Source of the DNA: a virus
Length of the DNA: 21,360 nucleotides
Direction: 5' to 3' (one strand)
IMG/VR virus record: IMGVR_UViG_3300047551_000895
Location: 1 to 21,360 of that record
The translations under genes and the position numbers were made by a program. The notes under the pieces are model-generated. The model was not told the origin of the DNA, did not search any database, and saw only the letters and a program-made list of their open reading frames with translations. Shown here one piece after another: positions 1,027-19,686 of the stretch. Each line of letters opens with the position of its first letter. Within the stretch, counting starts at the first letter, position 1.

Positions 1027-4017
1027 ATGGATCAAGTAAGTTACAGAGGGTACGCCCGGAGTATAGGTTTCGATCCTATTAAAGCACCTACGGAAGGTCT
1101 TGCTAGAATGCAAGAACGTGATAACCGTATCATACGTGGTATGGAAGACAACCGTAGGGAGATTAAACAGGTTAGAGACGAGTATGGTGCTGGACTTGAG
1201 CGTAAGCTCAGTATCGAAGCACGAGATCGTGATCAGAATTACCAATGGGAAAAAAGGCTTGCTGAGAATCGTCAGGAAGCTATTGGTAAAAATGCACAGA
1301 CACTTATTCAAAGTGAATTGCAACGTGGTAAGAATGTAGAAGCTGTCTTTGATAGCCTCGCTAAGTTCAGTACTACACTTGCTGATGGTATCACTGAATA
1401 CCGTAAAAAGAAAGATGAAGCTGATAAGGTTCAAGGTGCATATCTTGTAGCCTCTGGTCAAATCTCTCAAGAGGAACTTAGGAATCATCTTACAGCTAGG
1501 TCTCTACTTAAGACATCTGGAGAGGCTACTAATCAAATCGTTGGTGGCCTACAACAGCGTAATGCTAACCCATACCTAGTTAGTAACCTAGCTTCTAGTA
1601 ATAAGGCTCTCCATGTAGGTATGATGGAAGCCTATGCAAGGCAAGCTCTTAGCAACTATCCTTCATGGGCTCAAAATAAACTAGATGAACGTGGTCTTAG
1701 CTCTGCTGAGCAAAGGCTTGCTGCTGCCCCTGAATTGCTTGGTGAGTTCCTTAAGGAGAATGGGCTACTTGATATCAAGCCAATGGCTATCATGGAGCCC
1801 CTACAGCGTGCTAATCAAGCCTATAGTGGTCTTGTAGAGGCAGCTAGGCGCTCTGATATCCGTAATAAATCGGATGATATTAGGTCTCAAGCAAAGCGAC
1901 TGCTGGTAGAGAATCCTACTGGTGAGTCCTTTATGGAAGCATTCAATATGATTGCTACCACCTATGCTGAAGATGGAGCTACTCCACTTGGTCGTAGGGG
2001 TGCTAGGGATGAACTCATTAAGCTTACTTCTGATACTACTCTCTTTACTGATCAACAGGTAGAGCAGATCTGGTCTAGTGCTATGACCGATCAGGGTAGC
2101 ATGAAGGATCGCTTTAAGGCTGAGTACGATGAGCTTCTCACTAATCGACAAAAAGATAAAGAAGCTGAGTTTCAGATTGTTGAAGCACAAGAACGTCGTG
2201 AGAACAAAAGGCAAGAGAATCAACTACTTGATTGGGTCAGTAATAACAATCCTAATGAAGAGACTCTCACTGCTATTATTAAAGAAGCTAAGGCAAAAGG
2301 TATTCCTACAGACCGCCTTCAAGCTCACCTTGCCTTTACTACTGAACAACAGAATGCTGACTTCTGGACTAAGCAATTCCGTGAACAGTATGAGCTAGGT
2401 ACTCTCACCGCTAGTGATGTAGATCAACCTGGTGTCCCTGTTGAGGTACGTGAGACATGGCGTAACCGTGCTCAGCAGCTAGACCAGCAACGGGCTGATT
2501 CTGGTATCAAGCAAGAGACTATTAAGTCTGAACTTACTGATGCACTTAAGCAAAATTTGATTGGTGATAGTACTAACCGTAGTGCTCACTATAGTCTACG
2601 TGGTGCTTCTGATTATGCACTTAAGTTGTACAATAAGAAGTTCCAGCAATATGCTAAGACAATGGAACCTAGTGTTGCTGCTAATAAAGCACGCCTAGAT
2701 GTCCTAACAGCTATTGAAGCGAAGAAAGGTGCCTTTGCTGTTATTGCTTCTTCGCAAGCAAAGGCAGGTCAGACACAAGCCTTCTATGCTGCATTTACTC
2801 CTGGTAAGCATCCTGGTGCCCCAGCTACCATCAATGTTATCAACTCTTCTGAAGTCATTAAGAAGGTACGTGCTAATCCTAATGTAGTTAACACTGAAGT
2901 ACTTGCGAGTCCCGCTCTTCTTAGAGACATTGATAACCGTATCACCAGTGGTAAGCCTATCTCTGTTCCCGAGATCTACACTGATTTGTCTAGGGCTATG
3001 CCTGGCATGAGTCCTACTCAAATCCTCAATGCTCAACTTAAGGCGGCTGGCCTTAAAGGTCAAATCAAACCTGGCTTTAGGGATCAACTAAGCCAAATCA
3101 ATGATCCTACACTACGTGCTATCTTTGCTCAACCTACCACTCAGGATCGTCTTAACACTACTATCATTGGTAGTGGTAATGCACCTGCTACTGTACGTAC
3201 AGGCAACAGTGGCTATGCTGATGTAGTAGCACTTGGCAATGCTTCTGGGTTTAAGTTCCCTCAGGTGATGGCAGCTATGTGGGCACTGGAATCTGGATGG
3301 GGTAAGTATACCTCAGGCAAGAATAATGTCTTCAACATTAAAGCACGTCCTGGTCAAGGTACTATGAAGAATGGTTCCTATTGGAGGGACTACGCTTCGC
3401 CTCTTGAATCCGCTAAGGACTTCTTAAACCTCATGACTGATCCTAGGTATGCTCCTGGTCTGTCTAAAGCTAAGACACCACGTCAAGCTATCGAAGCTAT
3501 TGCAGCTGGTGGCTATGCTGGTGGTGAGGCTGCCTATCCTAGTAAGATCATTCGTGTGATGCAACAGATGGGTGTTAATGTTGATCAACCTTATACCCAA
3601 GCACCTCCTGCACGTAACCAAGCATTCATGCGTCCTACTCTTGCTTACATCACAGATAACATTGGACCTACCTCTACTGGTCCTCACCTAGATGTTAAAC
3701 AACAAGACAACCCTAATACACCTGTTAATGAGTTTGCTAGGGAGTTCTCAGCTAAAGCTCTTGATAACTTTGTCGTTGTTGACGATCCTCAATTTGGACG
3801 TGTTCCTTTGAGTCGTATTCCTGTTACTGATACCTTTGCTGGTCATGTAGCCCGTGGTTCACACGGTATTGACTATGGTACAGCTAAAGGATCCAAAGTG
3901 TTCCTGCAGAATGGAGCACGTATTGTATCTAAAACCCGTACACAACACGGAGATAAATTGGTTATTCAACTGCCGGATGGACGGCGTTTCAGTTTCTTAC
4001 ATGGTAAATCAGTATGA
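1027..4017 (+). CDS. Internal virion core protein with glucosaminidase domain and degenerate M23-like tail (gp15-like)
   Basis: A 996-aa protein. Residues 1 to ~720 are mostly charged and helical, as expected for a core protein. Residues ~730-855 form a FlgJ/LytG-type glucosaminidase domain: FKFPQVMAAMWALESGWG with E755 as the likely general acid, then TSGKNNVFNIK. The last ~60 residues look like a LytM/M23 peptidase barrel (SHGIDYGTAKG, then RFSFLHG). However, H946 and D949 are three residues apart instead of the usual four, so zinc binding is doubtful. T7 gp15 (747 aa) has no such domains; T7 carries its wall-cutting activity on gp16. The protein probably opens the peptidoglycan during DNA ejection. 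Its stop overlaps the next start (ATGA), suggesting translational coupling. The start lacks a clear Shine-Dalgarno. Confidence 0.75.
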   Translation: MDQVSYRGYARSIGFDPIKAPTEGLARMQERDNRIIRGMEDNRREIKQVRDEYGAGLERKLSIEARDRDQNYQWEKRLAENRQEAIGKNAQTLIQSELQRGKNVEAVFDSLAKFSTTLADGITEYRKKKDEADKVQGAYLVASGQISQEELRNHLTARSLLKTSGEATNQIVGGLQQRNANPYLVSNLASSNKALHVGMMEAYARQALSNYPSWAQNKLDERGLSSAEQRLAAAPELLGEFLKENGLLDIKPMAIMEPLQRANQAYSGLVEAARRSDIRNKSDDIRSQAKRLLVENPTGESFMEAFNMIATTYAEDGATPLGRRGARDELIKLTSDTTLFTDQQVEQIWSSAMTDQGSMKDRFKAEYDELLTNRQKDKEAEFQIVEAQERRENKRQENQLLDWVSNNNPNEETLTAIIKEAKAKGIPTDRLQAHLAFTTEQQNADFWTKQFREQYELGTLTASDVDQPGVPVEVRETWRNRAQQLDQQRADSGIKQETIKSELTDALKQNLIGDSTNRSAHYSLRGASDYALKLYNKKFQQYAKTMEPSVAANKARLDVLTAIEAKKGAFAVIASSQAKAGQTQAFYAAFTPGKHPGAPATINVINSSEVIKKVRANPNVVNTEVLASPALLRDIDNRITSGKPISVPEIYTDLSRAMPGMSPTQILNAQLKAAGLKGQIKPGFRDQLSQINDPTLRAIFAQPTTQDRLNTTIIGSGNAPATVRTGNSGYADVVALGNASGFKFPQVMAAMWALESGWGKYTSGKNNVFNIKARPGQGTMKNGSYWRDYASPLESAKDFLNLMTDPRYAPGLSKAKTPRQAIEAIAAGGYAGGEAAYPSKIIRVMQQMGVNVDQPYTQAPPARNQAFMRPTLAYITDNIGPTSTGPHLDVKQQDNPNTPVNEFAREFSAKALDNFVVVDDPQFGRVPLSRIPVTDTFAGHVARGSHGIDYGTAKGSKVFLQNGARIVSKTRTQHGDKLVIQLPDGRRFSFLHGKSV

Positions 4018-7000
4018 CACAAACCCCCTATGTGGATGAAGAGGAGCTGAAGCGTCTAGAAGCTGAAGCACTTGCTGAAGAGCAAGCCTTACAACAGGCA
4101 GCTCCAGCTTATAGTCCTCAGACAGCCCCTCAAACAATGTACAAGGAGGCTACACCAGCAGAGAACAAAGCTGCTGGTAATGTACAGCCTGTTAAGTCTC
4201 CTCAACAACAAGCTACTCAGCAACTACTTGGTACTGGTGAGAACAAGCCACAACAACCTCTCAATAAAGGTAGTGGCTTTATCTACGGTAGTGGCGATCC
4301 TAATGCTACCCTTGGTCAAGATATTGGTACCTATGCCCAACGTACCCTTGAGGGACTTGGATCCGTTGGTATGGGTATTATTGACTTCGGTATGGATGCT
4401 ATTGGTCGTATCCCTGGTGCTGAATGGATTGATGATGCCTGGGATGCCAAGACAAAGTTCAAGAACCCTGGCTTTCAAAAGGTAAGGGAAGTATCTTCTA
4501 TTCTTGTCCCTAGCATTGGTGTTGGTGCTGCATCTCGTATTGGTACTGCTGGTATGGCTGGTGGTCCTGTAGCACGTGGTCTTGCTGCACTTGGCATTAA
4601 CGTTGCTGGTGATGTCGCTGTTAATGCTATCAGCGATCAATCAGAAGGTGAGACTGTATCGACGATTGTGAAAGAAGCGGCACCTTGGTTGCCTGTTCCT
4701 GATGCACTAGTTGTTAAGGATACTGACTCACCTGAGCAACGTCGTCAACGTAACATCTATGAATCAGCTGGCATTAGTATTATTGGTGATATCATTGGTT
4801 ACTCTGCTGCTGCAGGTCGTGGAGTAATGGATTGGTTTAAGCCTAACGATAAGACCGCTCAGGAGTTTATGTCTTCTGAAGTTATCGTTAATGCTGATGC
4901 TGCTACTGCTACTCGGTTGTCTGAGATCGACACTCAACGCATGGCTCTGCAAGAAGAGTTGGCTCAAGTATCTTCTGTTGCTCCTCTTGATGAAGCGCAG
5001 CTGATCGAACAGAGTGTACGTATTGGTGATCTTGAAGCACAGATTAAAGGATTGGATAGTGAAGCTGGTAAGCTTGGCAAACAGTACGCTGATACCGGAG
5101 CGTCAGAACTCACTGAGAGCCCTCTAGAATCGTTTGTAGAGCGTCAGCAGATCAGCAGGGATACACAGGTAGATGAGGTAGGTAAAGGACGCCTTATGGA
5201 CGATCCTGAAGGGGCTGGTGGTGTTGATCCGATGATCACTCCTACGATGTTCCCTGAGGGCTCTACTGCTGCACTTAGTGTTCCTCCTGGTAACATTGCC
5301 CGTAACATGGCTGACACTACCGCTATCAAACTTGGTAACAGTGGTGGTACTCCTGCTCCTATTCTCTCTGAGCGTGCCTACTACGACCTTAGTAAAGGTA
5401 ATGCCGTCTCACGTAACATCATTGAAGACCTAGCTGAAAGCACTCGTGCTACTGGTAACTTTGATGCAACGGTAGAGGGGTTTAGGTACACTAAGGCTCA
5501 AATGAGTGATGCTGCATGGAAGATCTACAATGATATCATTGGTACTGATAAAGTATCTGATCTTAAGAACCTCTTCCTCAACAACCGTGATGTAAAACAT
5601 CTCCTGGATGGTCGTTCTATTAAGTATATCAATGATGTACAAGCAGAAGCTATTGGCTATGCTATGCGAGAACTGACTGATAAGTACATCGGTCAAGTTG
5701 TTACTGAAACATCAGCTCGTGCTATGGATACCGTAGGACGTGAAGTAGCAGATATTGCTGAGGGTTATAAGGCATTCCCTGAGACTGCTGACCTTGGTCG
5801 TGTTACTGAGATGCTTGGTGATCGTCTTGCCTTCCTTATGGAAGAGTATGCACTAAATAAGTACATCGCTGGTTGGGCACTTAAGAACCAAGATCGTTGG
5901 CAGAAGTTCCTTAAGGAATCACCTGACAAGGAATCTGCTATCAGGCAGATCACTGAACAGTTTGATCTCAAAGTACAAGAGAAGAACATTCAGGCACAAG
6001 GTTATCGGGATATGATTCGGACTATTGCTCGTGATCGTCCTGATGCTGCTCAGCCTTTGATTGATGCGTTTGCATTATCTAAAGGTGATGTGGACTCCCT
6101 TGATAAGCTGATGAAGTGGAGTGCTAAGCAACTTAGCCCCATGGGTCTTCTTAAGAGTGGCGATGAGGGACTCAATGCCTTTGCACAAGGTGTATGGTCA
6201 GTACGTTATAACAACATGTTGTCTGGTATCTCTGCTCTCAAGGCTATTACTGGTAACACTGTTGCTCTTACCCTACGTACTAACAACGCATTTCTTGGTA
6301 CTGGTCTCGGAATGTTGATGGGTCGTAATACTGTTGAGGATCTCCGTAAGGCTACACATGTCTACGGTTCATTCTGGCAGGTCAATAAACGAGCACTTGC
6401 TGATTCCTGGGATACTTTTAAGCGTACCTGGAATAATGGTAAGTGGGGTAACGACGCCAATGCAGACTTCCGTGAACTAGCACGTGAGGACCTTGTTACT
6501 GACTATAATCCTAACCTTTGGGACACACTGGCCGATATGGAACAGGTGTGGGAAAAAGATGGTAACTGGGGTCGGCTCTTCCAATACAGGTCTGCTAGGT
6601 TCTTGTATGACCTTGGTAACTGGCGTTGGTTTAAGTACGGCACTAACGCAATGATTAGTGCTGATGCCTATGTACAGACTACTGTTGCTTCTCAACTGGC
6701 TCGTGCTAGGGCTTGGGATGAAGTCTACGGTATTGGTTATAAGGGTGCTGAACTTGCACAACAGCTAGCTAAGGCTGAGAAGATTGCTTATGATGAATCG
6801 TTTGATGCTCTGGGTAATCTCACTGATGCTGCTGCTAAGAATGCTGCTGGAGAGATTTCACTTAACCTAGACGATGAAACTGCTACATGGTTGAGCCGTG
6901 GTGTAAACAAACTGCCTATCTTGAAGCCATTCTTCATGTTCCCTAAGACTGGTGTTAATGGTGTTAAGGCTGCTATGTCTTACACTCCTATCGCTACTCT

Positions 7001-8234: not shown

Positions 8235-10202
8235 ATGGCAATTACACAAAATACATTCACTGGTAATGGGTCCAACTTAGGACCCTTTTCTTTTACCTTT
8301 AAATGGCTTGAATCTACTGATATTAAGGTTAGTGTTGGTGGTGTACTGAAGACAGCTGGTACTCACTATAACCTTCAGAGCCTTAATTACACGACAAAGA
8401 CTGGTGGTCAGGTTCTGTTTACTGCGGGTAATGCTCCTGCTAACGGAGCCTCTATTCGTATCTACCGAGATACTGATGATGATGCTTTGTCTGCTGTTTT
8501 CTCTTCTGGTTCTGCTATCCGAGCAAAGGATCTGAATGATAACTTCACGCAGAACCTTTATGTAACTCAAGAAACTAACAATAACGCGCTTAATGTTGAT
8601 GGCTCCAACCCTATGGTTGGTAACCTCAATATGAATGGCTATCAAATTGATAACCTAGGTGAACCTACTTCTGATAGTGATGCTGCCACTAAAAAATATA
8701 TTGATGACCGTTATGGCAATCTAAGTATTCCCGGCTTTACCCGTTGGAGTAAGACTGCTGTTGGTGGTGAGACGACATTGTCTGGTGTTGGCACGACTGG
8801 TGGTACACTTGGTTATAGCCCTAACCGTGAACAGGTATACCTTAATGGTGCTCAACTGCAACGTGATGCTGACTACACCGCTAATAACGGTACTAGTATT
8901 GTCCTCAACGTAGCACTCCTTGCAGGTGATGTTCTTGAGGTAATCTGCGTCAATAACCTCAACACTGGTACAACAGCTCAAGCACAGGATGTCTACTGGA
9001 ATCAATCTGGTAGTGGTGCTGTTACTAGGACTGTTGAAAGCAAGCTGCAAGATGTGGTGAGTGTTAGAGATTTCGGAGCTGTAGGTGACGGGATATCTAA
9101 TGACACGTCGAAGGTTCAGGCAGCAGTCAATGCAGTCGGTGCAAACGGCAGCATTTATTTTCCGAAAGGCGTTTACTACGTCACCGCTCTTACGGGCGCA
9201 GATAACGTCGTCTTCTATGGAGACGGCGCATCATTCACTGGCGGCTACTCTAGAAAGATCGCGCAGAATGGTTCTATCTCAGGTGATGGCCAGCGCCAAT
9301 ACGATTATTTGAGCTGCGCCATTCGCAACAGTGGAGGCACGTTTGCCTTTATTGCTGACAGCGACCACCAGCCAACAGGGCTGCAGTCTGTTGTGCATTC
9401 CGACGCCACGACCATTCAGGTTAACTACAAAAAAACGTGCAAAAAAGTAGGCACATTCCTTGTTGCACCTGACGAAACCCTGGCTCCTTACGGCGTCACT
9501 GCTGGATCCAGCGTGGGGCTCAGCGCTTCTTACATTAAAACGGCTGCTCCTCTTGGCTTTACCGTTTCAGGCACTGGTGTTGTAACAACGACTCCTTTAT
9601 GGAGTGGGTCCATTACGGCTACTGTTGCTAGTGATGCTATTACTATTCTTCACCCGCCAGTTGCGCACGCCGAAGACCCTACGTCGATTTGCATCGTTGG
9701 CAGCAGCACTGCGAAAGAGCTTGTCTATGCAACCTACAGCATTGATCAAGTAACACTACGTTGCATGGATCAGATGAATGGTTATGTGTATTACAACGGC
9801 TCTTCATGGGTTTGGGACCAATCTTTTTCTACAAATGTAAATGCGCCAACTCTTACGTGGACGGCAAGCAACACTTTGAGAGTTGCACATGAAAACGTAG
9901 GAGACAGGTACGGTATTTCTTTAACGCATCATGGGTCAGTAGGGACAATCCGTTCAGCGGTTAGCACGGCTGGAACCAATCTCTTTGAAATTATCTTCTT
10001 CGATGCTGCAGGAGCCCAAATAACAACGCCGTCAACTGGAATGAAGGTCTGGTACACACGCTGCGCAAAGGTTCCAAGCAAACTGCCTTCAAATCTTTTG
10101 GTCAGTGTTAGAAGAGGTCATGCAACTGTGCCTATCGCCAATTACGCCAACATCGCAGCGCAAAACTTTTGGATTATCGGCACGATGGAGAACAATACTT
10201 AA
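8235..10202 (+). CDS. Tail fibre/tailspike with T7 gp17-type anchor and pectate-lyase-like beta-helix
   Basis: A 655-aa protein. Residues ~1-125 match the T7 tail-fibre N-terminal domain that docks on the tail: FSFTFKWLESTDIKV, IRIYRDTDDD and AIRAKDLNDNF (T7 gp17 has ILRAYDLN). A shaft-like segment follows (NPMVGNLNMNGYQIDNLG, DAATKKYIDDRYG), then a beta-rich domain and the linker TVESKLQDVVSVRDFGAVGDG at ~266-286. That linker opens a pectate-lyase-3-type beta-helix (NDTSKVQAAVNAVG, YFPKGVYYVT). It recognises, and possibly cuts, host surface glycan. Codon style changes at about 9090, from GGT/GCT/ACT-rich to GGC/GCG/ACG/TCG-containing, marking the distal part as foreign to the phage backbone. 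No Shine-Dalgarno is visible at the start. Confidence 0.85.
   Translation: MAITQNTFTGNGSNLGPFSFTFKWLESTDIKVSVGGVLKTAGTHYNLQSLNYTTKTGGQVLFTAGNAPANGASIRIYRDTDDDALSAVFSSGSAIRAKDLNDNFTQNLYVTQETNNNALNVDGSNPMVGNLNMNGYQIDNLGEPTSDSDAATKKYIDDRYGNLSIPGFTRWSKTAVGGETTLSGVGTTGGTLGYSPNREQVYLNGAQLQRDADYTANNGTSIVLNVALLAGDVLEVICVNNLNTGTTAQAQDVYWNQSGSGAVTRTVESKLQDVVSVRDFGAVGDGISNDTSKVQAAVNAVGANGSIYFPKGVYYVTALTGADNVVFYGDGASFTGGYSRKIAQNGSISGDGQRQYDYLSCAIRNSGGTFAFIADSDHQPTGLQSVVHSDATTIQVNYKKTCKKVGTFLVAPDETLAPYGVTAGSSVGLSASYIKTAAPLGFTVSGTGVVTTTPLWSGSITATVASDAITILHPPVAHAEDPTSICIVGSSTAKELVYATYSIDQVTLRCMDQMNGYVYYNGSSWVWDQSFSTNVNAPTLTWTASNTLRVAHENVGDRYGISLTHHGSVGTIRSAVSTAGTNLFEIIFFDAAGAQITTPSTGMKVWYTRCAKVPSKLPSNLLVSVRRGHATVPIANYANIAAQNFWIIGTMENNT
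9042..9066 (+). repeat. 25-bp direct repeat, copy 1 (fibre linker)
   Basis: This 25-bp block starts AAGCTGCAAGATG and encodes KLQDVVSV at residues 270-277 of the first fibre. The same 25 bases occur at 10377-10401 in the second fibre gene, 1335 bp (445 codons) downstream and in the same reading frame. Bases on both sides encode nearly identical amino acids but differ at wobble positions. Confidence 0.95.
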
Positions 10203-10243
10203 TAGTATGCTGAGCCTATCTAGTCCGAAACACGAAACTTATC

Positions 10244-10285
10244 ATGATCACTATTCTCGGCATCAAAGTGTTGTTTATCCGGTAA
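10244..10285 (+). pseudogene. 5' relic of the holin-like gene between the two fibre genes
   Basis: This stretch reads MITILGIKVLFIR then stop. The intact gene at 11908 begins MITILGIKVSYETLAFF, so the first nine residues are identical. Over those nine codons the DNA differs only at four third-codon positions. Upstream sequence is also alike (CTATCTA... and AATCATG/TATCATG). After codon 9 similarity stops. The silent-only differences mean this relic was once part of a functional gene in a related phage and was carried in with the end of the first fibre gene, rather than being a fresh local duplication. It leaves a 90-bp gap between the fibre genes with no other gene in it. Confidence 0.8.
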
Positions 10286-10292
10286 TTAACTT

Positions 10293-11885
10293 ATGACTAA
10301 AACACGTGACTTAGCCGACCTGGGTGGAGGTTTTATCCAGGCCGGTACTGGTGCCATGCAGCGCACCGTTGAATCAAAGCTGCAAGATGTGGTGAGTGTT
10401 AAAGACTTTGGGGCGGTTGGTGATGGTGTTGCTAATGATACTGCTTACATTCAAGCTGCACTAATAGCATCTGCTGGGAAAACACTGTTTATCTCAAAGC
10501 CTACTGTTAAATACATTTCTGGTGAACTAACTATTCCATCAAATACTCGCATCCAAATTGAACCTGGCACAGTTATAGAATCAAACTCTACACTGCTGAC
10601 AGGTACAAAAAAACTATTTAACATTGCTGGCAGTAACGTACATATAGTTGGTTTTGGTGCAACGCTGCAGATGGTTAAAGCTGGTTTTTCCAGTGAACAT
10701 AATCATGGAGTAAGTATTGTTTCAGCTTCTGGGCAGATTGTCATTGAGGGTTTAGCGAGCAATGATTCTGGAGGAGATGGTTTCTATGTTAATTCTCCAT
10801 TAGCAGATGTTACTCTTAAAAACTGCAAAGCTAACAATAATAGGCGGCAAGGTTTATCAATTATCCAATGCAAATCTTTTTTTGATTATAGTGGAATCTA
10901 TACAGGCACAACTGGTACAGCGCCTTCGGCTGGTGTAGATATTGAGCCAAATAATACGACTGATATTCTTGGCCCAATTCGTATGTTTAATACTGTAACG
11001 TCAGGAAACGACGGGCCGGGTTTTGAGATTTTTCTTAGCGCCTGGCAGGCTGTAACGAACTACGCCGATATTAAAATTGTTGGCGCATATACCAAAAATA
11101 ATGGATTGGTTTCAATCGGTGGACGTTTTCGGGCAGGTTTCGACATAAACCGCATTACATCTACTACACCATGTAAGGGGCGCATTCAAATTATAGATCC
11201 AGTTTGCGAAGATGAGAATGTAGCTGGCATTCATGTCTATGATTGGGATATTAACGGCCCCGTGGTTGAAATAGTGCGTCCAACTATAATTAATCCAAAC
11301 CAAGCCAACGGAAATGTTAGTACCATTAATGGTGGTATTATCTTCCGCAACTCTGGTTCATTTACTGCTGACTCAGGGAATATCTTTGTGGTTGACCCGA
11401 TTATTCGTGATGATGATAATCGTCTAAATCCAAACTCTCTTGCACCTTTTAGATTTTCTGGTACTGTTTCTCTGAGTATTGAGAATCCAACTACGGTTTT
11501 TGCTGGAACAAACCCTTGGTCAGCTGATGTTACTTCAACTCCAACAATTATACAGCAAAAAGAGCAACTTGTTGATTTTTCAACTAATTTAACAATGACA
11601 GATTGGCGCTACGTTGGTCGTACTGTAACTAACAATGGTGCTACAGGAACTGTTACTAGAACCTTACCTTTGGCAAAAGTCGGAATTGTTCTTAACTTTG
11701 TTCTTATGGAATCGTTTGCTCTTCGCATTTATCCAAATGCTGCTGATCGAATTGTTCCAGTAGGAACTGCTGTTGCTAAATATATTGAAGCAAGTGTGCG
11801 AGGTGCCCGAGTTACCCTTCGATGTCGAGAAGCTGGTTTCTGGGATATGGAGAACGTATCAGGAAGTTGGACAAGCGAACCTTGA
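10293..11885 (+). CDS. Second tailspike, pectate-lyase-like beta-helix without gp17 anchor
   Basis: A 530-aa protein starting MTKTRDLADLGGGFIQAGTG, then TVESKLQDVVSVKDFGAVGDG at ~25-45, the same linker as in the first fibre. A pectate-lyase-3-type beta-helix follows, with NDTAYIQAALIASAGKTLFI and repeated short beta segments (VTLKNCKANNNRRQGLSI, IVDPIIRDDDNR). The T7 gp17 anchor domain is absent. The short opening resembles, from memory, the start of free-standing cyanophage spikes. How it attaches is open: through the first fibre, directly to the tail, or not at all in this state. No Shine-Dalgarno precedes the start, which lies just after the holin-like relic. The 3' end runs up to the intact holin-like gene. 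Base use is more AT-rich than in the core genes. Confidence 0.75.
   Translation: MTKTRDLADLGGGFIQAGTGAMQRTVESKLQDVVSVKDFGAVGDGVANDTAYIQAALIASAGKTLFISKPTVKYISGELTIPSNTRIQIEPGTVIESNSTLLTGTKKLFNIAGSNVHIVGFGATLQMVKAGFSSEHNHGVSIVSASGQIVIEGLASNDSGGDGFYVNSPLADVTLKNCKANNNRRQGLSIIQCKSFFDYSGIYTGTTGTAPSAGVDIEPNNTTDILGPIRMFNTVTSGNDGPGFEIFLSAWQAVTNYADIKIVGAYTKNNGLVSIGGRFRAGFDINRITSTTPCKGRIQIIDPVCEDENVAGIHVYDWDINGPVVEIVRPTIINPNQANGNVSTINGGIIFRNSGSFTADSGNIFVVDPIIRDDDNRLNPNSLAPFRFSGTVSLSIENPTTVFAGTNPWSADVTSTPTIIQQKEQLVDFSTNLTMTDWRYVGRTVTNNGATGTVTRTLPLAKVGIVLNFVLMESFALRIYPNAADRIVPVGTAVAKYIEASVRGARVTLRCREAGFWDMENVSGSWTSEP
10377..10401 (+). repeat. 25-bp direct repeat, copy 2 (spike linker)
   Basis: Identical to 9042-9066. 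It encodes KLQDVVSV starting at residue 29 of the second spike and lies in the same codon phase as copy 1. Recombination between copies would remove 1335 bp and give one continuous fibre gene of about 771 codons, ending directly before the intact holin-like gene. Confidence 0.95.
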
Positions 11886-11907
11886 ACTATCTAAACCTTA
11901 CTTAATC

Positions 11908-12114
11908 ATGATTACCATCCTAGGCATCAAAGTGTCCTATGAAACACTAGCCTTTTTCATCCTATTTATCGCTTCTGAATACCTTGGTATGACTAAGAAG
12001 CGTCGTTCTAATAGCGTTACCCAAGCCATCTCTCTGGCTGCTGCTTACTTTAGTAAGACTCGTACTGAAGATGACACAGTACGTCGTATCCGTAGAACCT
12101 TTAGAGGGAAGTAA
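11908..12114 (+). CDS. Small membrane protein, candidate holin (T7 gp17.5 position)
   Basis: A 68-aa protein starting at the ATG in AATCATGATTACC. Longer readings run into the fibre gene and are rejected because the homologous relic at 10244 also begins with MITILG. A single hydrophobic segment (YETLAFFILFIASEYLG, residues ~11-27) is followed by a basic tail (TKKRRSN, RRIRRTFRGK). T7 gp17.5 is a 67-aa, one-segment holin directly after the tail fibre gene; size, topology and position match, though the sequences are not clearly alike. It would permeabilise the inner membrane and set lysis timing. It lies six bases before the lysis enzyme gene. Other small membrane roles remain possible. Confidence 0.55.
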   Translation: MITILGIKVSYETLAFFILFIASEYLGMTKKRRSNSVTQAISLAAAYFSKTRTEDDTVRRIRRTFRGK

Positions 12115-12119
12115 TTATC

Positions 12120-13118
12120 ATGGTATTGCTGCAAGTTAAGCAGTACTACCCCCAGACAGATAGTGCAACAGGTCATGGAGATCGGATGTGCTTTAGCTCT
12201 ACATGTGCTATGGCTATCAAGTATCTCCTACCTGATGCCCTCAAGGGTAGTAATGCAGATGATGATTACCTCCGTACAGTACTTAAATACGGTGATACTA
12301 CTTCCTCTACAAGTCAAATCAAAGCCTGTCAGCAATACGGTGTGTTTGCTACCTTCTACCAGAAAGGTACAAGACAGGATCTACTCAATGAACTTAAAGC
12401 TGGTTACCCAGTAGCTACAGGTATCCTCCACAAAGGTCACGTATCCAATCCTATTGGTGGTGGTCACTGGATGCTTCTTATTGGTGACACTGGAGAACAT
12501 GGTGTTTTCCATGATCCATACGGTGAGATGGATAACGTTAACGGTGGTTACGTTACCATTGGTTCCGGTGGTAAGGATGTTAGCTATTCTTGGGCTAATT
12601 GGCTAAAGCGTTGGGAAGTAGAAGGTAAAGGTACTGGTTGGTATATGACCTTCCGTCCTTTGTCAACGCCTGTTCCTAAGGCTGCCGAGATGCAACCTAT
12701 CGATCTCGTGGATAACACCTGGAAGGGAGTTATGGCTGCCGCTTCTAAGGCAGGGGCTAAGTTTCCACAAGTAGTAGCTGCTCAGTGGGCTCTTGAGAGT
12801 GGCTACGGTGAGCACACCTCTGGTAAGAATAACTTTTTTGGTATCAAGGGCAAAGAAGGTGAAGGTACCCTTGTTTCTACTACTGAGTTTGTCGGTGGTA
12901 TGGAGATTAGGGTAGATGCTTGGTTCAAGAACTTCACTTCTTTTGATGCCTGTATTGCCTACATTGTAGACCGTTGGTACAAGGACTACAAAGGTTACAA
13001 GGGGGTCAACCGTGCTTCTACACCTGAGGAATGCGCTGAACTGTTGGTAAAAGAGGGATATGCAACTGATCCACTATATGCCACCAAATTACAACGTCTA
13101 CTAAAAGAAAATGATTGA
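12120..13118 (+). CDS. Bifunctional lysis enzyme: C39-like cysteine peptidase plus glucosaminidase
   Basis: A 332-aa protein. Residues ~1-180 look like a peptidase C39-like fold: QYYPQTD, MCFSSTCAMAIKYL with C24 as candidate nucleophile, GGGHWMLLIG with H116, and FHDPYG with D132. Residues ~195-330 are a FlgJ/LytG-type glucosaminidase domain: AKFPQVVAAQWALESGYG with E226, TSGKNNFFGIKG, then an SLT-like helical end (TPEECAELLVKEGYA). The enzyme would cut both peptide and glycan bonds of the wall at lysis, with the holin-like protein upstream as partner. The glucosaminidase part is a paralogue of the domain in the virion protein at 1027-4017. Its stop overlaps the next gene by 8 bases. No signal peptide is visible, so export would depend on a holin. 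Confidence 0.8.
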   Translation: MVLLQVKQYYPQTDSATGHGDRMCFSSTCAMAIKYLLPDALKGSNADDDYLRTVLKYGDTTSSTSQIKACQQYGVFATFYQKGTRQDLLNELKAGYPVATGILHKGHVSNPIGGGHWMLLIGDTGEHGVFHDPYGEMDNVNGGYVTIGSGGKDVSYSWANWLKRWEVEGKGTGWYMTFRPLSTPVPKAAEMQPIDLVDNTWKGVMAAASKAGAKFPQVVAAQWALESGYGEHTSGKNNFFGIKGKEGEGTLVSTTEFVGGMEIRVDAWFKNFTSFDACIAYIVDRWYKDYKGYKGVNRASTPEECAELLVKEGYATDPLYATKLQRLLKEND

Positions 13119-13741: not shown

Positions 13742-14333
13742 TCCGTTAAAGATTAAACCATCACCACAGATTGCACGTACCATCAAACTCCTTACTGATG
13801 GCACTATGACTAAATGGAGTGGTGGTCGTATTCCTAAATTAACGAGAGAACAAGCTATTGGATTCACTGCTAACTTAATTCAAGAGACGGGCTCACCTGA
13901 TCTCAGTAAATTAGATGTAGTTGAAGGTGGTAGTGGTGCTGGTCGTGGTATTGGACAATTTACTGGTGCTAGACGTACTGCTTATGATCAATGGGCTAAT
14001 CGTTACCAAAATAGGAATAACCCTGATGCTCAACTACAGTATGTAGCAAAGGAGTACAAAGGAGATTATGATCCTAACGGTAACTCACTAATCGGTTACA
14101 CTAGATCATTTGAGAACGCACCTAAAGGTGTTACGCCTCAACAAGCAGCTTTGTACTTTAGTAACACATACTTTAGACCTAGTGAGCCACATAATGAGCG
14201 TAGGTCTAGTTATGCACAACAGTTAGATAAAGCTTATCCGATTGCTGCACCTAAACCTAAACCGATTCCAAAACCAACCCTAAAGCGTCAAGATCCAATG
14301 AAGATCTTTGGTATTTCTCTACCCTTCCAATAA
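13734..14333 (+). CDS. Phage tail-lysozyme-like protein
   Basis: A 199-aa protein. Residues ~12-150 resemble the tail-lysozyme fold (Phage_lysozyme2 type): TREQAIGFTANLIQETGS with E51 as candidate catalytic acid, GAGRGIGQFTGARRTAYDQW, PDAQLQYVAKEY, and YFSNTYFRPSEPHNERR. The C-terminus is a Pro/Lys linker (APKPKPIPKPTLKRQDP) ending IFGISLPFQ, which could tether it to a virion partner. It overlaps the preceding gene by 8 bases. Sitting between terS and terL is unusual for such a protein. It is the third separate wall-hydrolase candidate in this window. A virion role is suggested by the family; a lysis role is possible. Confidence 0.65.
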   Translation: MADPLKIKPSPQIARTIKLLTDGTMTKWSGGRIPKLTREQAIGFTANLIQETGSPDLSKLDVVEGGSGAGRGIGQFTGARRTAYDQWANRYQNRNNPDAQLQYVAKEYKGDYDPNGNSLIGYTRSFENAPKGVTPQQAALYFSNTYFRPSEPHNERRSSYAQQLDKAYPIAAPKPKPIPKPTLKRQDPMKIFGISLPFQ

Positions 14334-14385
14334 TGTGACACCACTACTGCCTAGTCCTGATCACTACCTCCATAACCTAATAACG

Positions 14386-14661
14386 ATGACAAGCTCTGAA
14401 GCAAAAAGGCTACACCGTCGTGCAATTAAAGAATACTTTAACTGTCAATGTGTTTATTGCGGAGAAACTTATGAATTACATGAACTTACACTTGATCACG
14501 TTCGCCCTAAGTGTCTTGGTGGTCAAGACCTTACATCAAATCTTGTACCCAGCTGTAGGAAATGTAATCAGGCTAAAGGCAGTAGAAATTGGTTACAATG
14601 GATGAGGGATACATTTGGCCCTACCAATAGGGAAACACTAATCCTAGCACACATTCGTTAA
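14386..14661 (+). CDS. HNH endonuclease
   Basis: A 91-aa protein with a complete HNH/McrA-type core: CVYC (C22, C25), LTLDHVRPKCLGG (D37, H38), SNLVPSC (N52), CRKC (C57, C60) and NQAKGSRNW. The two CxxC pairs bind structural zinc; the D-H...N residues form the betaBetaAlpha-metal active site. The start at 14386 (MTSSEAKRL) is preferred over 14308 because the latter overlaps the lysozyme gene and adds unrelated residues. It may be a free-standing homing endonuclease, or a packaging-associated nuclease as some HNH genes near terminases are. The second HNH gene at 16404 belongs to a different subfamily. Confidence 0.85.
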   Translation: MTSSEAKRLHRRAIKEYFNCQCVYCGETYELHELTLDHVRPKCLGGQDLTSNLVPSCRKCNQAKGSRNWLQWMRDTFGPTNRETLILAHIR

Positions 14662-18853: not shown

Positions 18854-19054
18854 ATGAGTAGAACATATCGTAAGCAACCATTACGTAATCAATTCCGTCA
18901 TCCTAAGACACTTAATGAACAAAAACAAGTTAATGTGTCAAAAAACTATTACGATTCAGAGTATACGGTAAAAATTAGGAATCGTTATATCCCTACAGCA
19001 TGGGATGATATCACTGCCACCTCCATCTACCAAAACGATCACAAGTCCCAATGA
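18854..19054 (+). CDS. Small basic cyanophage-type hypothetical protein
   Basis: A 66-aa protein starting MSRTYRKQPLRNQFRHPKT, basic at the N-terminus and more polar/acidic toward the end (YIPTAWDDITATSIYQ). I recall similarly opening small hypothetical proteins in cyanophages, but no function is known to me. Its stop overlaps the thyX start (ATGA), so the two are coupled; it may act with, or simply be carried with, nucleotide metabolism. No domain or catalytic residue can be named. Confidence 0.65.
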   Translation: MSRTYRKQPLRNQFRHPKTLNEQKQVNVSKNYYDSEYTVKIRNRYIPTAWDDITATSIYQNDHKSQ

Positions 19055-19686
19055 CTACCCACCAAGTCAAACTAGTCCACATCACCCCTAACGCTGAAGA
19101 GCTTATCTCTTACATGGCTCGTGTTAGCAATCCAGCTAATCAGTCAAACACTGAGACCAGTGCTAAACTAATTAGGTATCTCATAGACCATCAACATTGG
19201 TCACCGTTTGAAATGGTTAATATGTGTGTAGAGATTAACACTACCCGTAGTATAGCAGCACAGATCCTTAGGCATAGAAGCTTTAGTTTTCAAGAGTTCT
19301 CCCAGAGATACGCTGAAGCATCTATTCCAGCAGGACTGCCTAGTCTTCGTAGACAAGATACTAAGAACCGACAGAATAGTATTGATGACTTAGACACTGA
19401 TACCAAGAATCTCTTTAACTATCGTATTGGTATGCTGTATGGTGATGCCTATAAGATCTATAAAGACATGATAGCAGCTGGGGTAGCTAAAGAATGTGCT
19501 AGAGAAGTACTCCCACTAGCAACACCTACTCGACTGTACATGAATGGCACTATCAGGTCTTGGATTCATTACTGTCAGCTTAGGTGCGGTAACGGTACAC
19601 AGCTAGAGCATAGGATCATCGCAGAAGGGGCCTATAAGCTCCTAGAGAAGCATCTACCTAGTGTCTGTGCAGCTTTGACCGTTTGA
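19051..19686 (+). CDS. thyX: FAD-dependent thymidylate synthase ThyX
   Basis: A 211-aa protein of normal length for the family. The ThyX signature RHRSFSFQEFSQRY (residues 74-87) fits the consensus RHRxxSxNExSxRY, with Q in place of N at position 81. Other family elements include ARVSNP near 23-28, HWSPFEM at ~49-55, the REVLPLATPTRLYM block and a C-terminal RSWIHYCQLRCG. The enzyme makes dTMP from dUMP using methylene-tetrahydrofolate, FAD and NADPH, feeding phage DNA synthesis. Its place after terL, far from where a replication module would lie, is noteworthy; a hairpin with a T-rich tract follows. It starts in the stop codon of the 66-aa ORF. Confidence 0.95.
   Translation: MTTHQVKLVHITPNAEELISYMARVSNPANQSNTETSAKLIRYLIDHQHWSPFEMVNMCVEINTTRSIAAQILRHRSFSFQEFSQRYAEASIPAGLPSLRRQDTKNRQNSIDDLDTDTKNLFNYRIGMLYGDAYKIYKDMIAAGVAKECAREVLPLATPTRLYMNGTIRSWIHYCQLRCGNGTQLEHRIIAEGAYKLLEKHLPSVCAALTV

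Follow-up and report, generated by a model that had tools for sequence, protein, structure and literature searches.

In the 21,360-base virus record IMGVR_UViG_3300047551_000895 (the window, meaning the whole stretch of DNA that was analysed), a 25-bp direct repeat links two neighbouring genes for receptor-binding proteins (RBPs), and this repeat is very probably what remains of an earlier exchange of tips between the positions of the two genes, not a working switch. The window is of the T7-like cyanophage type, its closest named relatives being the Synechococcus phages DSL-LC07, S-SRP01 and S-CBP1 of the Autographiviridae, and is a freshwater cyanobacterial virus with two RBPs. Both RBP genes, gene 1 in slot 1 and gene 2 in slot 2, sit between an internal virion protein gene and a small holin-like gene (phrog_15106), which is followed by the endolysin. 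Gene 1 runs from a T7 gp17-type anchor through a C-terminal anchor domain (anchorC) and a linker to tip 1, and gene 2 from a conserved N-terminal peptide through a linker to tip 2; the C-terminal tips would be interchangeable cassettes. The features of the locus are as follows, with the basis of each assignment in brackets.

8235–10202, + strand: gene 1, anchored RBP of 655 amino acids (open reading frame; PF03906 Phage_T7_tail at residues 6–157, E = 7.1e-14; PF12708 at residues 275–352)
8235–8714, + strand: T7 gp17-type anchor domain (PF03906; identity of 93–98% to the nearest relatives, among them L001, L157 and L172)
8715–9008, + strand: anchorC, candidate docking or branching domain for the gene 2 protein (locus co-occurrence, profile match)
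9009–9041, + strand: front half of the slot-1 linker, slot-1 DNA allele (diagnostic-site typing)
9009–9134, + strand: linker block, copy 1 (71% identical to 10344–10469)
9042–9066, + strand: 25-bp repeat, copy 1, slot-2 DNA allele within slot 1 (allele change in AAGCTG, 9042–9047)
9135–10199, + strand: tip (cassette) 1, 355 amino acids (slot-2 homologue in L043; base composition)
10244–10272, + strand: relic of the start of the downstream holin-like gene (MITILGIKV), with a stop after 13 codons (match to the real start; L047)
10293–11885, + strand: gene 2, second RBP of 530 amino acids, lacking an anchor (open reading frame; PF12708 from residue 34)
10293–10343, + strand: conserved N-terminal peptide MTKTRDLADLGGGFIQA, probable docking peptide of gene 2 (17 amino acids identical across 9 two-fibre loci)
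10344–10469, + strand: linker block, copy 2 (pairs with 9009–9134)
10377–10401, + strand: 25-bp repeat, copy 2, slot-2 DNA allele in its native setting (allele typing)
10470–11882, + strand: tip (cassette) 2 (full-length 82% identity to the anchor-fused tip of L033)
11908–12114, + strand: intact holin-like gene, 68 amino acids, phrog_15106, putative holin-like (open reading frame; bounds slot 2 downstream in relatives)
12120–13118, + strand: endolysin, C39-like plus glucosaminidase, the right-hand landmark (open reading frame, domain matches)

The 25-mer, AAGCTGCAAGATGTGGTGAGTGTTA, is identical in its two copies, with differing bases on either flank; both copies lie in codon phase 0 of their own gene, their offset of 1335 is divisible by 3, and joining the genes at the copies would yield a product of 771 codons. 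A preliminary description of the window had reported these in-phase blocks 1335 bp apart, placed them in the linker where the beta-helix begins, and predicted an intact deletion product of about 771 amino acids; coordinates, phase, exactness and product length are all borne out. The 25-mer forms the core of a longer stretch of homology (9009–9134 versus 10344–10469, 126 nucleotides, 71% identity) that encodes the head of a PF12708 pectate-lyase-like domain; in gene 1 this domain begins at residue 275, in gene 2 at residue 34. Exact runs in 13 other within-genome linker pairs, from related contigs, are 5–17 bp long, so the 25-bp identity goes beyond what protein homology alone would give; because a long in-genome repeat is private to the window, the repeat is not a conserved device. 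General homogenisation of linkers within genomes (concerted evolution) was considered as well and rejected, similarity being 0.69 within genomes and 0.70 between them.

For comparison, 188 IMG/VR loci (numbered with the prefix L) remained after removal of near-duplicates, the queries being gene 1, gene 2, the second-gene N-terminus, the holin-like gene and DNA patterns. The loci were gathered with the window's own sequences, the contigs are related and partly fragments, and the counts should not be taken as a census. The DNA of slot-2 linkers hardly varies, and 25 diagnostic sites, many of them synonymous, separate it from that of slot-1 linkers. Typed at these sites, the slot-1 linker of the window is chimeric, with slot-1 bases in front and slot-2 bases at the back, the change falling within the six shared bases AAGCTG (9042–9047) where the 25-mer begins. 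Compared with the slot-1 linkers of five close relatives, this order of sites is non-random (permutation p between 5e-5 and 7e-3). Across IMG/VR, 37 stretches contain the 25-mer, one copy in each, and in 36 of them it is preceded by a slot-2-type or similar front. The window's own slot-1 front precedes it only in L116 (the same contig as L053), where a second slot-1/slot-2 chimeric linker, at 1720–1780, shows the same allele switch on another protein that lacks a T7-type anchor. Judged by these bases, the 25-mer is the slot-2 allele now lying in slot 1 and the slot-1 linker of the window is a recombinant; because the slot-1 copy is an imported allele, an earlier exchange that left this footprint is the better reading of the repeat.

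The tips themselves have homologues in the opposite slots. For tip 1, the sole full-length homologue detected is a slot-2 tip in L043, 46–47% identical and immediately upstream of the holin-like gene; searched by itself against IMG/VR, the helix-1 protein had no match, and a search with the L043 alignment recovered L043 again. The GC content of tip 1 rises to 0.52 in surroundings of 0.40–0.45. The slot-2 homologue, the holin-start relic behind tip 1 and the raised GC content together point to a former position of tip 1, as far as its sequence tells, in slot 2 or in a single-fibre locus, next to the holin-like gene. Tip 2 is 82% identical over its full length to a tip fused to a T7-type anchor in slot 1 of L033. 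Further pairs across slots join slot 2 of L172 with the first gene of L040 (96%), slot 1 of L127 with slot 2 of L152 (80%) and slot 2 of L157 with slot 1 of L119 (78%). In tblastn searches against phage records, both tips gave weak partial matches only.

The second boundary of tip 1 is marked by the relic between the two fibre genes. This holin-gene relic, noted already in the preliminary description, is real: 10241–10271 matches the start of the intact gene (11905–11935) at 27 of 31 positions, and a holin-like gene normally follows slot-2 or single-fibre cassettes. Gene-start relics are found at 18 of 97 cassette ends, 13 of them a second-gene start before a holin-like gene and 5 the reverse; the second-gene-start relics arose more than once, since they lie at several different junctions. 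One locus, L047, carries an identical 28-nucleotide holin-start relic and a related spacer (shuffle p = 4e-4) together with an unrelated tip, a native slot-1 linker and an anchor of 61% identity. Because L047 shares relic and spacer but differs in tip, linker and anchor, the relic boundary is probably, on this sequence comparison, older than the arrival of tip 1. Tentatively, the relic might even be a retained recombination handle, so that slot 1 would be bounded by the same pair of sequences as slot 2, a linker on one side and a copy of the holin start on the other. Any tip could then move between slots, or between one-fibre and two-fibre phages, by ordinary homologous recombination that leaves the next gene undamaged; an identical relic beside a different tip and anchor is what such a handle predicts, and L047 matches this.

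Other traces of gene starts were seen in the window and its relatives. Upstream of the holin relic, at 10205–10243, the sequence GTCCGAAACACGAAACTTATC faintly resembles a decayed second-gene-start relic and could be an older layer of exchange. L074 and L077 (about 7689–7950 of L074) have a longer holin-start relic, which extends as far as SYETLA, and a second-gene start that an in-frame stop interrupts immediately after GGGFI, that is, a decayed second gene.

The favoured course of events is that tip 1, a slot-2-type cassette, would have come into slot 1 when a linker of the slot-1 type recombined with one of the slot-2 type, with the crossover in or beside AAGCTG at 9042–9047 and the far end of the cassette resolved at or near the holin-start relic. 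The route may have been an exchange between two co-infecting phages, or a deletion of an older slot-1 tip within one genome followed by the gain of a new second gene. In the latter course, a two-fibre ancestor would have lost its first tip by recombination between the linkers, the very event predicted in the preliminary description, so that tip 1 came to be fused to the anchor beside the holin-like gene; a second gene would later have been inserted behind the holin start, leaving the relic. This course accounts for the chimeric linker and the relic together, and fusions of an anchor with a full slot-2-type linker are known (L013, L122, L126, L159, L166 and L192), as is the fusion in L033. However, L047 has the same relic and related spacer although its slot-1 linker is native and its cassette unrelated, which favours a relic older than the arrival of tip 1, and we therefore prefer, with modest confidence, the exchange between two phages; deletion and re-acquisition is possible but the less likely history.

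Could the repeat still act as a switch, driving frequent in-genome recombination that toggles between two-fibre and fused one-fibre forms? The repeat is exact and in phase, its recombination product is intact, a fused form of tip 2 is present in another lineage (L033), and recombination between tailspike genes of one phage has a laboratory precedent (PMC11414711). A deletion between the 25-bp copies is possible in principle, as is one between the two holin starts, which would remove gene 2. Yet once deleted, tip 1 could not be restored from the same molecule, and none of the relatives has a comparable in-genome repeat. Among the 37 stretches with the 25-mer, none has the 25-mer twice or shows the expected junction on the window's anchor, an absence that is weak evidence in itself. 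No inverted repeat was found around the fibre genes, and scans of the proteins from a subset of the window's open reading frames gave no match to a recombinase family. There is no sign of regulated or reversible deletion, and we regard a switch as very improbable. The reversible population variant proposed in the preliminary description thus finds no backing in IMG/VR, while its other proposal, cassette capture, holds in that capture or exchange of tips is supported by the linker alleles, the relics and the cross-slot homologues. The fused single-fibre layout it had expected for the second tip does exist, in L033, but on a diverged anchor, and therefore shows mobility of tips between lineages, not the ancestral state of the window's lineage. 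The evidence backs shuffling of cassettes but not a reversible switch.

Two further explanations are equally or even less credible. An assembly artefact, in which two strains were joined at a shared short word, comes to mind for a metagenome-derived record, as assemblers can be misled by such words. The alleles, however, have no more than 6 bases in common at the switch, which is not enough for an assembler to join on, swapping tips at the 25-mer would leave both linkers unchanged, the two-gene order agrees with many relatives, and the same chimera occurs in L116/L053 on another protein; an artefact is highly unlikely. Least plausible of all is that the repeat is merely a conserved head of the pectate-lyase-like domain, kept by protein constraint or chance codon use; the block does encode the PF12708 head common to hundreds of viral tail proteins, but the slot-1 and slot-2 alleles differ in synonymous codons for the same residues and slot 1 of the window switches abruptly from one to the other.

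The locus would encode a two-member, probably branched, receptor-binding apparatus, in which the gene 1 protein is attached to the tail through its T7 gp17-type domain. Scans with domain and family profiles found no match to an anchor in gene 2. Its N-terminal peptide is 100% identical in 9 of the initial two-fibre loci, whose anchors are 66–97% identical, and near-invariant at the start of gene 2 across many relatives. Among complete loci, a second gene is present in 22 of the 29 with anchorC and in 0 of the 21 without it (Fisher p = 2.6e-8, for contigs that are not independent); conversely, anchorC occurs in 22/22 loci with a second-fibre gene and in 7/28 without one. Single-fibre loci with anchorC also more often keep a second-gene-start relic before the holin-like gene (5/7, versus 3/21 in those lacking anchorC; p = 0.009). 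The anchorC profile matches the tandem N-terminal domains of a K1-specific capsule depolymerase (PDB 9k4a, whole-sequence E = 4.6e-7), and one of 15 anchorC members matches the baseplate wedge subunit phrog_2885 (E = 0.0023); a profile comparison found no direct match of anchorC to T4 gp10. We infer that the gene 2 protein, which has no anchor of its own, probably docks on anchorC of gene 1 through the conserved peptide. The pattern of anchorC and second genes fits, by analogy, the anchor-branched model of Klebsiella podoviruses, in which the second RBP docks through a conserved peptide (PMC6872550).

Four layouts recur among the relatives: one anchored RBP followed by the holin-like gene (A); an anchored RBP with a second gene, as in the window (B); a bare anchor with two anchorC repeats and a second gene (C); and a bare anchor with two second-type genes (D). 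Single-fibre and double-fibre layouts interchange. Anchors 94–98% identical to that of the window belong both to single-fibre (L001 and L002) and to double-fibre loci (L157 and L172), so on this scale the second gene has been gained and lost recently; the existence of the single-fibre L001 and L002, with anchors of 94–97% identity, supports part of the reading in the preliminary description. That description had also named, as evidence against its reading, the joint presence of both fibres in distant relatives with conserved spacing, and this is partly the case: the two-gene layout is indeed widespread, but tips, spacing and gene number vary. In the loci of layout C (L161 at 4233–6958, L152, L153, L180 and L194), a tipless T7-type anchor of about 325 amino acids is followed by a second-type RBP gene. 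Three-gene loci with a bare anchor and two second-type RBP genes are L012 (95–4244), L140 (3913–7402), L123 and L106, and the second-type RBPs of three-gene loci carry the N-terminal peptide variants MTKTRDLANLANGVTSAN, MTNSRDLANLGGGFIQAG and MTKTRDLADLANGITSAN.

Several observations weigh against a swap of tips and the docking scheme that goes with it. The closest candidate for a donor of tip 1, its homologue in L043, is just 47% identical. Many of the second-gene relics seen in single-fibre genomes may simply reflect that the second gene was lost, and for most of them such loss is an equally good explanation. For cassettes that have a relic-free homologue, the neighbour of that homologue is the one the relic predicts in 5 of 7 cases (2/2 and 3/5), which is not significant in so small a sample (Fisher p = 0.43), and the other p-values are optimistic because the loci are related. 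AnchorC is present in single-fibre genomes as well. Although both genes have a PF12708 head and the profile of slot-2 proteins matches solved beta-helix enzymes and tailspikes, our own AlphaFold2 models are too poor (mean predicted local distance difference test scores of 41 and 38) to support the beta-helix folds or the docking structurally.

Elsewhere in the window, a glucosaminidase domain (PF01832) is found both in the large internal virion protein (1027–4017) and in the endolysin (12120–13118). An HNH endonuclease (PF14279, PF01844) lies at 14308–14661, between the structural and lysis genes and the terminase, and a ThyX-type thymidylate synthase at 19051–19686 (PF02511, E = 1e-46).

The window shares several features with the anchor-branched RBP1/RBP2 systems of Klebsiella podoviruses (KP32viruses of group A; Latka 2019, PMC6872550): the first protein bears a T7-type anchor and a further domain ahead of its tip, the second begins with a short, conserved N-terminal peptide, the tips vary greatly, and some relatives have a single RBP. 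Unlike KP32viruses, it has a different peptide sequence and belongs to a cyanophage, and the exchange of tips from slot to slot is visible in its DNA alleles and gene-start relics. The adapter systems of K1-5 and SP6 resemble the relatives of layout C, with their bare anchor, two anchorC repeats and separate RBP gene; this likeness is one of sequence alone and concerns the relatives, whereas the window's own anchor bears a tip. Movement of a receptor-binding module between tail spike positions is already known from Kutterviruses (Ackermannviridae), in whose tail spike cluster the same module is found on different spike types (PMC8432352), crossovers are proposed to fall in a conserved motif that precedes the beta-helix (PMC8432352, PMC11414711) and recombination of tsp4 with an added tsp5 was observed in the laboratory (PMC11414711). 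In contrast to the window, Kutterviruses are myoviruses with four tail spikes, and the passages considered describe no gene-start relics at the far ends of modules. In lytic phages of E. coli, short conserved DNA on both sides of an exchangeable receptor-binding domain has been proposed as recombination hotspots (Pas 2023, PMC10408124); those motifs surround one RBP gene across genera, whereas the boundary in the window is a truncated copy of the start of the next gene. A search for exchange of tail-fibre domains in cyanophages gave no match in the collection of papers covered, and such systems seem little described in freshwater cyanophages. What is new is a cyanophage case in which slot-specific linker alleles and truncated starts of the next gene record the direction of exchange.

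Exchange of tips is the main way in which phages change hosts, but natural exchanges seldom leave a trace of their direction and route. In this locus the linker alleles and truncated gene starts record the slot from which a tip came, so that donor, recipient and direction can be read from the DNA. The locus and its relatives thus offer a testable system for the conversion of single-fibre into double-fibre phages, and back, in freshwater cyanophages.

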